Origin: Sulfitobacter sp. BSw21498
Lineage (GTDB): Bacteria; Pseudomonadota; Alphaproteobacteria; Rhodobacterales; Rhodobacteraceae
Direction: 5' to 3'
NCBI RefSeq assembly: GCF_006064855.1
Contig: NZ_CP040753.1
Location: 372,001 to 436,000, forward strand
Length of the DNA: 64,000 nucleotides
The translations under genes and the position numbers were made by a program. Below are positions 21,481 to 58,512 of the stretch, in pieces (positions within the stretch are counted from its first letter, which is position 1; each line of letters begins with the position of its first letter). The notes beneath the pieces are model-generated. The model worked only from the letters and a program-made list of their open reading frames with translations, was not told the origin of the DNA and searched no databases.

Positions 21481-21604
21481 GCACGTGCCCCCTTTGCGGG
21501 GGTGGCGTCCAGAATTTTCACATTGCGCGGTTTATACGCAGGCCCTCGGGGTGTTTGCTTGAAACATGGGCGCAGCTATGCTGCGATGCGGCATGTTCGG
21601 GATG

Positions 21605-21615
21605 CTGCTATGCAG
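21605..21615. promoter_or_regulatory. CTGC-TAT-GCAG palindrome upstream of DUF1127 gene
   Basis: The same 11-mer occurs at 57027-57037 and 57296-57306, upstream of the other DUF1127 gene and of the sRNA hairpin unit. Here it lies about 92 bp before the start at 21707, and a related GCAG-CTATG-CTGC arrangement lies at 21572-21584. It fits the CTGC-N3-GCAG site described for Rhodobacter PhaR, but the binding protein is inferred only. Confidence 0.5.
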
Positions 21616-21706: not shown

Positions 21707-21943
21707 ATGGCTTATAACAACACAATTTCGCACAGCAACGTCCCAACCATCAAAGCGCCTTTCGCCGTCATCGGCGGATTTTTCGCAGCGATCTGGACGG
21801 GCTTGGTTAATATGGGCGCAAACTCGGGCCGGATGCGTCAGGTGACGTTCCTGCAGTCCAGAACGGACGAAGAGCTGTCGGCAATGGGCATCAAGCGTGA
21901 CGAAATCGTGCACCATGTCTTCCGCGATACATTCTACGTCTGA
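21707..21943 (+). CDS. DUF1127-family small protein
   Basis: A 78-residue protein. The second half (RMRQVTFLQSRTDEELSAMGIKRDEIVHHVFRD) matches the DUF1127 motif, in which an arginine-rich helix is followed by L-x-x-x-D-x-x-L-x-x-x-G-I-x-R-x-x-I. Such proteins in alphaproteobacteria can bind RNA and act in stress responses (for example CcaF1 of Rhodobacter sphaeroides). The N-terminal part is hydrophobic (FAVIGGFFAAIWTGLV), a less usual feature. It is monocistronic, with a terminator just after the stop. It differs from the 70-residue DUF1127 protein at 56715. Confidence 0.82.
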   Translation: MAYNNTISHSNVPTIKAPFAVIGGFFAAIWTGLVNMGANSGRMRQVTFLQSRTDEELSAMGIKRDEIVHHVFRDTFYV

Positions 21944-56493: not shown

Positions 56494-56539
56494 ACGGAGC
56501 GATGTCAGCTTAACCGAATATCAAACTTTGAATGCAAGA

Positions 56540-56571
56540 ACGGCGGTGCTTTGGGAGGAAAGCACCGCCGT
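56540..56571 (-). ncRNA. CCTCC-loop sRNA hairpin 4 / bidirectional terminator
   Basis: Perfect 13-bp stem ACGGCGGTGCTTT / AAAGCACCGCCGT with minus-strand loop CCTCCC. On both strands T-rich sequence follows (CTTTATC on plus, TCTT on minus), so it can end both uvrD and the DUF1127 transcript. Confidence 0.8.
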
Positions 56572-56579
56572 CTTTATCT

Positions 56580-56620
56580 ACGTCCCCAATCCAATCGGGA
56601 GGAAAGGGGGAAGGGGACGT
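56580..56620 (-). ncRNA. CCTCC-loop sRNA hairpin 3
   Basis: ACGTCCCC/GGGGACGT stem of 8 bp enclosing, on the minus strand, CCCCCTTTCCTCCCG. It belongs to the tandem array behind the DUF1127 gene. The loop is larger and less regular than in the others. Confidence 0.7.
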
Positions 56621-56624
56621 TAGT

Positions 56625-56668
56625 GAAAGCCGCCGGTCTCAGGGAGGAGGAGGAGACCCGAAGCTTTC
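56625..56668 (-). ncRNA. CCTCC-loop sRNA hairpin 2
   Basis: Two-part stem GAAAGC/GCTTTC and GGTCTC/GAGACC. On the minus strand the apical loop reads CTCCTCCTCCCT, the anti-Shine-Dalgarno-like CCUCCUCCC motif of the 'cuckoo' RNA family. Confidence 0.82.
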
Positions 56669-56672
56669 TACA

Positions 56673-56700
56673 GGCACACAACAGGGAGGGTGCGTGTGCC
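56673..56700 (-). ncRNA. CCTCC-loop sRNA hairpin 1
   Basis: GGCACAC/GTGTGCC stem with minus-strand loop including CCCTCCC. It is the first hairpin after the DUF1127 stop codon. Confidence 0.75.
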
Positions 56701-56714
56701 CGATCCGGTATCAG

Positions 56715-56927
56715 TTAAGCAGCGTTGCGCGCTGTTTCCAGTGCGATGCCGCGAATTTGCGAGCGGCCCATGCCCAAGTCATTCAGCTCGCGGTTGGACA
56801 GAGAGCTGAGTTCGTTGAAGGTCGAGCGGTATACCCGGCGTTGCTTGCGGCGAGTCTCAAATGTGGACATCAGCGCGGCAAAACGGTCTGCCAGGGTCGG
56901 TGCGGTTGTGGTGTTCAAGTAGGCCAT
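56715..56927 (-). CDS. DUF1127-family small protein, CcaF1-like
   Basis: A 70-residue basic protein. The second half (RRKQRRVYRSTFNELSSLSNRELNDLGMGRSQIRGIALETA) is a full DUF1127 motif. The ATG at 56927 is chosen over a longer frame from 56966 because GAGGTACTCCG precedes it and the family starts MAY. It is followed on the same strand by four CCTCC-loop hairpins, as the CcaF1 (RSP_6037)-CcsR1-4 operon of Rhodobacter sphaeroides is arranged, where the protein binds RNA and the sRNAs respond to oxidative and heat stress. The function here is inferred from that arrangement. Confidence 0.87.
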   Translation of the reverse strand: MAYLNTTTAPTLADRFAALMSTFETRRKQRRVYRSTFNELSSLSNRELNDLGMGRSQIRGIALETARNAA

Positions 56928-56993
56928 CGGAGTACCTCGTCTTGTTTCGTCTGAGTTCGTTATCATTCGTCTTGTGTTGGTTATGTATGAAAA

Positions 56994-57037
56994 TGCTGCA
57001 CCTGCACAACAGCCAGATCGGCAATGCTGCTATGCAG
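56994..57037. repeat. Direct repeat R1 upstream of the DUF1127-sRNA unit
   Basis: A 44-bp element sharing TGCTGC-CCTGCACAA, an ATCG block and CAATGCTGCTATGCAG with R2 at 57262-57306. It contains the CTGC-TAT-GCAG palindrome (57027-57037) and lies 67-110 bp before the DUF1127 start. It likely contains promoter or operator elements of the unit. Confidence 0.75.
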
Positions 57038-57136
57038 AAAGTGCATAGGGGAAGGTGACGTAACGTCCTGAACGGGAACAAAAATAACCACAGCGCAAAC
57101 GCTTGGATCCGGAATTGCGATGATGTGAAAAAAAAT

Positions 57137-57172
57137 GGCGACGATACCAGGGAGGAGGAGGGTATCGCCGCC
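57137..57172 (-). ncRNA. CCTCC-loop sRNA hairpin with terminator (second unit)
   Basis: Minus strand: GGCGGCGATACC / GGTATCGTCGCC (one mismatch) around CTCCTCCTCCCT, followed by ATTTTTTTT (57128-57136). It is both a CCUCCUCCC-loop RNA and a strong intrinsic terminator closing a separate transcript upstream of the DUF1127 unit. Confidence 0.85.
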
Positions 57173-57182
57173 GAAAACAAAC

Positions 57183-57205
57183 ACATCCGGGAGGAGGATG
57201 GATGG
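57183..57205 (-). ncRNA. CCTCC-loop sRNA hairpin (second unit, first hairpin)
   Basis: Minus strand CATCC / GGATG short stem around TCCTCCC (57184-57200), 60 bp after repeat R2. It is weaker than the others but carries the same loop motif. No coding frame lies between R2 and this hairpin. Confidence 0.65.
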
Positions 57206-57261
57206 TTTGGTCTTAAACTTGGAGCGCAGTATCTGCGTTCCTGAAGTCTTTTTGACCTATT

Positions 57262-57306
57262 TGCTGCGCCTGCACAATTATCTAATCGTGCAATGCTGCT
57301 ATGCAG
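57262..57306. repeat. Direct repeat R2 upstream of the sRNA-only unit
   Basis: A 45-bp near-copy of R1 with the same CTGC-TAT-GCAG core (57296-57306). On the minus strand it precedes the two-hairpin sRNA unit. On the plus strand it lies 136 bp before mrp, so it might influence both. Confidence 0.75.
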
Positions 57307-57441
57307 CGAAAACATGGGGTGAATGCGTAATTATTGGGCGGAAAATGTTCGTTTTGCCTTGGTCCTGTGCGGGATTTGAACGCAGGGTTGCGATTTAGCC
57401 AGAAACTGCCATGTCAAAGGCGGTCTCTAAAGGAATACGCC

Positions 57442-58512
57442 ATGCCACTCTCTAAATCCGACGTTGAAACAGCTCTGGCTCGCGTGAAGTTGCCAGACGG
57501 TAAGTCGATTCTCGATCACGACCTTATCCGCGCTTTAACTATTGAGGGCGATGTGGTGCGGTTTGTTATAGAGGCGCCGAATGCGCAGGTCGCGGCGCAG
57601 ATGGCCCCCTTGCGCGACGCGGCGGAGGCGGTGGTGCGCGAAATTGATGGTGTCGGTTCCGTCACGGTTGCTTTGACCGCCCACGGCCCTGCGCCCAAGC
57701 AGGCGGCACCCAGCCTCAAGATCGGCGGACATCCGAAGGCGCAGGAGGGTCCGATGAAGCCGGCAGGGGTTCAGCGTATTCTAGCCATCGGATCTGGTAA
57801 GGGCGGGGTAGGTAAATCTACCGTCAGCTCCAACCTTGCGGTCGCGCTGGCGCGGGCAGGGCGCAAAGTTGGTCTGCTCGATGCCGATATCTATGGCCCC
57901 AGCCAGCCGCGCATGATGGGCGTGAACAAGCGGCCTGCGTCGCCCGATGGCAAGACGATCATCCCGCTGCATGCCCATGGGGTAACCTTGATGTCTATCG
58001 GCTTTATGATGGAAGAGGGTAAAGCGGTCGTTTGGCGTGGCCCTATGTTGATGGGCGCGCTGCAGCAGATGCTTGGGCAGGTGGAGTGGGGCGAGCTTGA
58101 CGTGCTGCTCGTCGATCTGCCGCCGGGGACGGGCGACGTGCAACTGACCCTTTGCACCAAATCCGAGCTGTCCGGCGCGATCGTGGTGTCGACGCCGCAG
58201 GATGTGGCGTTGATTGATGCGCGCAAGGCGATTGATATGTTCAATACACTAAAGACGCCCGTACTGGGGTTGATTGAGAATATGTCGCTGTTTGTCTGTC
58301 CCGATTGCGGATCGCAGCATGAGATTTTTGGTCACGGTGGTGTTGCCGCAGAGGCCGCCAGGATGGATATACCGTTATTAGGTAGCCTACCCATTGATCT
58401 GGACACGCGCCTCTCGGGCGATAGTGGGACGCCGGTGGCAGCGGGTGGTGGTCCAATGGCGCAGGCCTATGCGCGTATCGCCGAAGGGTTGATCAAGGGC
58501 GGGATGGCTTAG
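57442..58512 (+). CDS. mrp: Mrp/ApbC-type Fe-S cluster carrier ATPase
   Basis: A 356-residue P-loop protein. Residues about 1-85 are a DUF59/MIP18-like domain (VETALARVKLPDGKSILDHDLIRALTIEGDVVRFVIE). The ATPase has deviant Walker A GSGKGGVGKSTVSSNLA (about 115), LLDADIYGPSQPRMM, LLVDLPPGTGDVQLTL and ENMSLFVCPDCGSQHEIFG, whose CxxC holds the bridging cluster between two subunits. It ferries Fe-S clusters to apo-proteins. ATG at 57442 follows AAAGGAATACGCC. A terminator follows at 58545. Confidence 0.94.
   Translation: MPLSKSDVETALARVKLPDGKSILDHDLIRALTIEGDVVRFVIEAPNAQVAAQMAPLRDAAEAVVREIDGVGSVTVALTAHGPAPKQAAPSLKIGGHPKAQEGPMKPAGVQRILAIGSGKGGVGKSTVSSNLAVALARAGRKVGLLDADIYGPSQPRMMGVNKRPASPDGKTIIPLHAHGVTLMSIGFMMEEGKAVVWRGPMLMGALQQMLGQVEWGELDVLLVDLPPGTGDVQLTLCTKSELSGAIVVSTPQDVALIDARKAIDMFNTLKTPVLGLIENMSLFVCPDCGSQHEIFGHGGVAAEAARMDIPLLGSLPIDLDTRLSGDSGTPVAAGGGPMAQAYARIAEGLIKGGMA

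Follow-up and report, generated by a model that had tools for sequence, protein, structure and literature searches.

The cuckoo family of small RNAs (sRNAs) is said to be defined by two to four adjacent hairpins, each of which carries CCUCCUCCC in its loop. The published account agrees with this definition (PMC3927594; like all papers below, cited from excerpts of its text). In Rhodobacter sphaeroides, the DUF1127 gene ccaF1 is followed by the CcsR1-4 hairpins with CCUCC loops, which end in a terminator (the CIN1 arrangement), and the ccaF1-CcsR unit has an RpoHI/RpoHII promoter (PMC10253847). In Sinorhizobium meliloti, several CCUCCUCCC hairpins form units consisting of sRNA only, as in NfeR1, SmelA075 and SmelA099 (PMC10746234, PMC3927594). 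NfeR1, an sRNA with three anti-Shine-Dalgarno (anti-SD) motifs, is activated by LsrB via the box TGCA-N6-GCAT (PMC10746234) and is, as a feature of S. meliloti, under NtrC co-control. The VtlR regulon of Brucella and Agrobacterium comprises three DUF1127 genes, AbcR2 or AbcR1, and VrsA (PMC7486931, PMC12595884), of which Brucella VtlR activates the DUF1127 genes and AbcR2 (PMC12595884). Control of DUF1127 genes and sRNAs by VtlR/LsrB is already known in Rhizobiales. The search yielded no paper that connects CcsR or the cuckoo RNAs of Rhodobacterales with VtlR/LsrB, a weak negative as the main CcsR, CcaF1 and cuckoo papers lay outside the search, and the excerpted literature on R. sphaeroides CcsR describes no VtlR/LsrB-type element.

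The locus described here lies in a window of 64,000 nucleotides (64 kb) of the genome of Sulfitobacter sp. BSw21498, the whole stretch of DNA that was analyzed. Two hairpin units, both of the cuckoo/CcsR type of anti-SD sRNA units, are situated on the minus strand within 56536-57214. Because loops and layout match, the predicted RNAs are assigned to the cuckoo/CcsR RNAs and the arrangement to the CIN1 type, a supported classification to which this locus adds an extra upstream unit, consisting of sRNA only, that R. sphaeroides CcsR1-4/ccaF1 does not have.

Two hairpin units of the cuckoo/CcsR type

The downstream unit begins with a DUF1127 gene of 70 aa (CDS 56715..56927, minus strand; PF06568, 44.2 bits, cut-off 23.3), which is CcaF1-like by position. 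Four hairpins follow on the same strand: hairpin 1 (56671..56702, folding z -3.13), hairpin 2 with the exact CCUCCUCCC in its loop (56623..56671, z -2.68), hairpin 3, the weakest, whose CCUCCC lies outside a clean loop (56578..56623, z -2.58), and hairpin 4 at the end of the unit with a CCUCCC loop (56536..56574, z -6.80). The loops of three of these four are shorter than those of R. sphaeroides CcsR1-4. The short DUF1127 gene with hairpins directly 3' of it on the same strand, as in CIN1, recurs alike among the relatives described below. CIN1 is further characterized by RpoHI/RpoHII-dependent transcription, by RNase E processing and by a DUF1127 protein that binds RNA; of these, the first may be reflected in the CCYA..TT core of the promoter logo described below.

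The upstream, sRNA-only unit (57137-57214, minus strand) consists of hairpin 1 with a CCUCCUCCC loop (57174..57214) and hairpin 2, a terminator with a CCUCCUCCUCCC loop (57137..57172, z -6.10) followed by a T8 tract (57128-57135). Both loops hold the exact CCUCCUCCC, and with its two hairpins the unit falls within the cuckoo definition; NfeR1, SmelA075 and SmelA099 possess three or four. Together the two hairpins fold at -32 kcal/mol with a z of -6.86, and hairpin 1 alone, taken as a short stretch, reaches just -1.97. A motif search located the exact CCTCCTCCC at three positions of the window, always on the minus strand (57189-57197, 57150-57158 and 56642-56650). When one mismatch was permitted, no enrichment was seen in the 64-kb window (12 found, 14 expected), and the significance of the motif therefore rests on the hairpins and not on the motif count.

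A first-pass annotation of this DNA had described two tandem minus-strand units of CCTCC-type hairpins, one of them led by a DUF1127 gene, and motif search and folding confirmed this layout. Of its six hairpins, both of the sRNA-only unit have the exact CCUCCUCCC loop. A small correction concerns the four behind the DUF1127 gene, only one of which has this exact loop, the others having shorter CCUCC or CCUCCC stretches. The terminator with its own loop and eight Ts was found as described, and the upstream unit is indeed devoid of an ORF of its own, as the frames that cross it run on through its terminator.

At the gathering thresholds of Rfam, no match was found in the window. A permissive search placed CcsR1 (RF02791) on the sRNA-only unit (E 6e-8; 39.2 bits, gathering 65.3) and ar14 (RF02344) behind the DUF1127 gene (E 8e-6; 40.0 bits, gathering 58.8). 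These sub-gathering scores are counted against the explanation favored below. Covariance models are said to suit the cuckoo-type family badly (PMC3927594), and the gathering score is treated here as a threshold set by curators and not as a defining feature of the cuckoo/CcsR/ar14 family. These matches, together with a layout and loops that are kept in relatives, bear out the earlier identification of the locus as the same system as R. sphaeroides CcsR1-4/ccaF1.

Conservation was followed in 80 related loci (L089-L168), the best 80 of 535 candidates, which were taken from named records by similarity of the DUF1127 protein alone and do not include R. sphaeroides itself. Hairpins with CCTCC in the loop and a stem of at least 6 were found within 900 nt 3' of the DUF1127 gene on the same strand in 78 of the 80 loci. 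This downstream region held 454 such hairpins on the same strand vs. 4 on the opposite strand, compared with 27 and 18 in the rest of the loci. The conservation of CCUCC loops in related genomes, which had been proposed as a test, is thereby upheld.

In 11 of the 80 loci (L089-L096, L098, L099 and L101), nine from named Sulfitobacter and two from Roseobacter sp., alignment confirmed the presence of the sRNA-only unit. The hairpin finder flagged upstream hairpins in 20 loci, including, outside the 11 aligned ones, L119, L120, L121, L130, L140, L145, L155, L156 and L166. The ORF-less unit is restricted to the closest relatives within this sample of 80 loci. In an alignment of the window with ten of the 11 relatives, 96.3% of cells pair, and changes on both sides are present in 12 of 22 base pairs (8 of 11 in hairpin 1 and 4 of 11 in hairpin 2); the covariation score was reached by none of 500 shuffles. 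This covariation of the stems indicates that the sRNA-only unit is kept as an RNA structure. In L099 (Sulfitobacter dubius), the upstream unit exhibits four CCTCC hairpins instead of two, which suggests that the number of hairpins changes through gain or loss of repeats.

A bipartite promoter element before both units

Both units are preceded by a common promoter element, TGCATAGCAGCATTG-N11/12-TTGTGCA-NN-YGCAG, which the first-pass annotation had overlooked and which is located at 57264..57305 (minus strand) before the sRNA-only unit, where it is conserved in the 11 two-unit relatives, and at 56996..57036 (minus strand) before the DUF1127 unit. The strict pattern occurs in 74 of 149 genomes of the family and in none with a reversed control, and the only two sites in the window's own genome are those at these two units. 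In a more relaxed form, GCTGCATAGCAGCATTGC with up to two mismatches was found in 108 of the 149 genomes vs. 7 for the reversed control (the latter counted by hand from the rows). When strict sites were fetched from 30 genomes, each of the 30 had two or more CCTCC hairpins in the following 1.1 kb. Loci that were fetched through the box (L041-L070 and L200-L229) are uninformative on its frequency in DUF1127 promoters, for which L089-L168 were used instead: a bipartite score of at least 22 was obtained upstream of 76 of the 80 DUF1127 genes and in none of 240 control stretches.

In the 230 nt before the DUF1127 gene, alignment was possible for 76 promoters. Their logo shows, in this order, TATGCA, some five loosely defined bases, CTGCATRGCNGCATTG, a spacer of 11-12 bases, ATTGTGCANNYGCAGCA, and a CCYA..TT stretch 20 nt after TTG; this logo is partly selected by its own scoring, and the upstream half of the dyad lies outside that scoring. 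In the DUF1127 unit, sequence and logo point to TTGTGC-N16-TACATA (56982..57009, minus strand) as the likely core promoter, with TTGTGC at 57009-57004 and TACATA at 56987-56982 separated by 16 nt. A core promoter of the TTGTGC-N16-TACATA / CCYA..TT kind is presumably of RpoH type. In the closest relatives of the window, the sRNA-only unit and the DUF1127 unit differ in their -10 regions, which counts against the favored explanation and implies that the two units may use different sigma factors.

Variation among relatives and across the class also includes unfavorable cases. The box before the DUF1127 gene is degenerate in four Sulfitobacter loci (L094-L096 and L101) in which the sRNA-only box is intact or nearly so. 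In a sample of the class, the single-site pattern TGCATRGCNGCATTG, which is uninformative outside the family, occurred in 30 of 192 genomes; when these 30 loci were fetched, forward-strand CCTCC hairpins were found only in two, both of the window's genus, and L275 showed a single CCTCC hairpin on the reverse strand. In this class-wide sample, the exact box was thus accompanied by hairpins only in the window's genus and in no case beyond the family. Both observations are counted against the favored explanation.

The upstream half of the element resembles published sites of VtlR/LsrB-type regulators. The Brucella VtlR motif is CAATGCAGCCATGCA (PMC12595884), the reverse complement of which is TGCATGGCTGCATTG. 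The TGCATAGCAGCATTG boxes of the sRNA-only unit (57291..57305, minus strand) and the DUF1127 unit (57022..57036, minus strand) each agree with TGCATGGCTGCATTG at all but two of 15 positions, and no other stretch of the 64 kb matches it as well. With up to three mismatches, the VtlR motif was found in 68 of the 80 DUF1127 promoters vs. 8 of 588 length-matched control stretches. The box of A. tumefaciens, GCAT-N3-TG-N3-T (PMC7486931), is present except for one base. The LsrB box of Sinorhizobium is contained in the dyad TGC-N7-GCA, and 71 of the 76 related promoters have this dyad in register. In the DUF1127 unit, TGCA-N6-GCAT is matched exactly (57032..57045, minus strand). The corresponding dyad of the sRNA-only unit (about 57301-57314, minus strand) reads TGT-N7-GCA and is one base off, with TGT for TGC, so that the exact S. 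meliloti box is found at the DUF1127 unit only, a further point against the favored explanation. The exact TGCA-N6-GCAT alone is not rare either, as the window contains it four times, twice at the promoter of the DUF1127 unit.

In S. meliloti, two of three cuckoo-type loci are located on pSymA and have upstream sites with two mismatches to the Brucella motif, one of them on the other strand. The third locus, on pSymB, has a weaker upstream box with four mismatches. The exact TGCA-N6-GCAT was found at none of the three, and another CCTCC pair on pSymB (L270) showed no box by the three patterns tried. Taken by motif, each of the two promoters of the Sulfitobacter locus contains a putative site of the published VtlR/LsrB type.

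The window's genome carries four DUF1127 genes detectable by Pfam, and the full bipartite element is present only at the one in the window. A flipped GCTGCTATGCAGC palindrome (L025, G000:C1:2016400-2017600), situated some 190 nt ahead of another of these genes, is too weak to use. The same holds for a box-like pair of VtlR-like sites within the window (21576-21614, minus strand; four mismatches each, 24 bp apart). A 78-aa ORF located 3' of this pair (21707-21943, plus strand) ends in a DUF1127-like stretch (ELSAMGIKR), and a Pfam search with a 64-aa part of it returned no match.

The VtlR/LsrB orthologue and the sRNA beside it

The genome encodes 18 LysR-type proteins and one clear VtlR/LsrB orthologue among them (P0001, locus L077), the gene of which is located outside the window at G000:C1:580497-581435. 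In a PDB search, P0001 matched Agrobacterium LsrB (9hh1; PMC11975290) with 250 bits and the next best entry with 111; over the DNA-binding part, which comprises the first 66 residues, the two proteins agree at 48. P0001 is also the best match in this genome of all 20 LysR proteins linked to trxB in other genomes, as determined by blast, with 43-51% identity in 18 cases and 37% and 26% in the others. Two other candidates, L086 and L088, were rejected: the blast with the trxB-linked LysR proteins led to L077, and a PDB search with L086 was in vain. A regulator beside trxB was rejected as well, as the neighbor of trxB in this genome is of the Lrp type and the regulator gene lies beside purL. An orthologue was identified in 146 of the 149 family genomes, and in 131 of the 132 good ones.

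Of the 30 trxB loci fetched (L169-L198), which were drawn from 73 genomes of the class with trxB, 20 have a LysR gene next to trxB. LsrB-type regulators look widespread beyond Rhizobiales, in many families of the class. The statement that LsrB is unique to Rhizobiales, made from a small set of species in the excerpted text (PMC11975290), does not fit these orthologue data.

The regulator is not called a redox-sensing LsrB. In contrast to Brucella and Agrobacterium, its gene is accompanied by purL and an sRNA of the SorX/SorY type and not by trxB, and none of the four redox cysteines of LsrB is present in any of 30 orthologues (L230-L259, the best-scoring matches, which lean to near relatives); they are nearly always missing in the 18 trxB-linked relatives, too. 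The lack of these cysteines and of trxB as a neighbor is counted against the favored explanation, and, given the missing cysteines, the redox mechanism of LsrB should not be carried over. A cysteine at position 190 of the protein (numbered from MDWDKL), where LsrB has a serine, is kept in 28 of the 30 orthologues and is possibly a different sensor residue.

SorX and SorY (RF02784 and RF02651) provide a further parallel, as the orthologue is followed by a similar dyad and then by an RNA of this type. A core common to both sRNAs was found 110-195 nt beyond the regulator gene in 29 of the 30 orthologue loci. In the window's genome, a SorX-family sRNA lies directly after the regulator gene, between it and purL (L199:2834-2917, minus strand; Rfam RF02784), and passes the SorX cut-off (57.6 vs. 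46.6 bits); a second genome scanned (L042) stays below it. Between the regulator gene and the sRNA, TGC-N7-GCA occurs in 28 of the 30 loci vs. 36 of the 821 remaining stretches of these loci, and GCAT[AG]NCNGNNNTG was found beyond the regulator gene in 23 of 30 vs. 0.12 expected. The full VtlR motif fits poorly there, with up to three mismatches in only five of the 30, which is likewise counted against the favored explanation. In Brucella, AbcR2 is also located close to vtlR (PMC12595884). The SorX/SorY-type RNA lies outside the window and is not a cuckoo RNA, and it is therefore evidence on the regulator only. In L094, L095, L096 and L101, the box before the DUF1127 gene has drifted to a TGCATATCGG/CGCATAACGG form, which resembles the one beside the regulator gene.

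Proposed control of the two units

The most probable explanation, with an estimated probability of about 0.7, is that the VtlR/LsrB-family activator encoded at 580497-581435 switches on both cuckoo/CcsR-type units, each via a VtlR/LsrB-type LysR site. In this model, which is built on sequence comparison, the two adjacent transcription units would yield a DUF1127 protein together with sRNAs in one case and sRNA only in the other. At each promoter, the activator would recognize the upstream dyad and a second site overlapping the -35 region, perhaps in combination with an RpoH-type sigma factor. As estimated by eye, the two transcripts would start near 56975 and 57235. The transcripts would then be processed to sRNAs whose CCUCC loops may pair with Shine-Dalgarno sequences, masking the ribosome landing site and repressing the target mRNAs. 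As proposed in the first-pass annotation, these RNAs are probably induced by stress and act as anti-SD sRNAs. The model resembles the VtlR regulon of Brucella and Agrobacterium in the regulator orthologue, the site motif, and a DUF1127 gene and sRNAs as putative targets. It differs in that the DUF1127 gene and sRNAs form one operon here and in that the sRNAs are of the cuckoo type and not AbcR.

Under the strongest of the competing explanations, plain CcsR-type units are driven by RpoHI/RpoHII alone, and the element is bound by another protein, its likeness to VtlR/LsrB sites being due to chance or to a general similarity of LysR-type sites. Such a promoter is the published one of R. sphaeroides ccaF1-CcsR (PMC10253847); other LysR proteins are available among the 18 of this genome, and beside the orthologue it is the dyad that is kept and not the full VtlR motif. 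However, the element matches experimentally defined motifs of two other genera at frequencies far above those of the controls, and a DUF1127 gene and an sRNA are what VtlR targets in Brucella (PMC12595884). Control by RpoHI/RpoHII alone is accordingly rated as unlikely.

The element before the sRNA-only unit might alternatively serve mainly the divergent mrp gene (57442-58512, plus strand), which points away from both units and has the element between itself and the sRNA-only unit. This neighborhood is conserved: a P-loop gene of the mrp type lies divergently within 2.5 kb upstream of the DUF1127 gene in 68 of the 80 loci and in all 11 two-unit loci. However, the 12 loci without mrp in this place still have the element before the DUF1127 gene, with scores of 26-31, which suggests that the element belongs to DUF1127 and not to mrp, and the second half of the element and the core promoter point to the minus strand. 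A main role for mrp is highly improbable on these grounds, and the element may have a side effect on mrp. It is equally improbable that the two-hairpin stretch, instead of being an independent sRNA gene, serves as an attenuator or as a leader from which transcription continues into the DUF1127 unit. The stretch is situated immediately 5' of that unit on the same strand, and its last hairpin is terminator-like. However, a complete element belonging to the DUF1127 unit separates the two, and the upstream unit, confirmed in 11, is missing from the majority of the 80 related loci.

Starting from activation of both units by the VtlR/LsrB orthologue, a wider proposal can be made, which is put forward tentatively and at slightly less than even odds. 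The VtlR/LsrB-family regulator would be an ancient alphaproteobacterial activator of DUF1127 proteins and anti-SD sRNAs. In Rhodobacteraceae, it would control the CcsR/cuckoo units as well as the SorX/SorY-type sRNA beside its own gene, forming an AND-gate with RpoH-type sigma factors, and, without the redox cysteines of LsrB, it would answer to another signal.

The layer of control appears to be new: in the literature searched, no account was found of a VtlR/LsrB-type element that is conserved before the CcsR-type units of Rhodobacteraceae. If the proposed control is true, it would join two literatures, one in which VtlR/LsrB is linked to DUF1127 genes and sRNAs of Rhizobiales and one on the RpoH-dependent CcsR, SorX and SorY in Rhodobacter. 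Under the wider proposal, two stress-sRNA systems known from work on singlet oxygen would come under one unrecognized switch. The two-unit layout of this locus constitutes a natural pair of promoters, with and without a DUF1127 gene, by which the roles of the sRNAs and of the protein may be separated.
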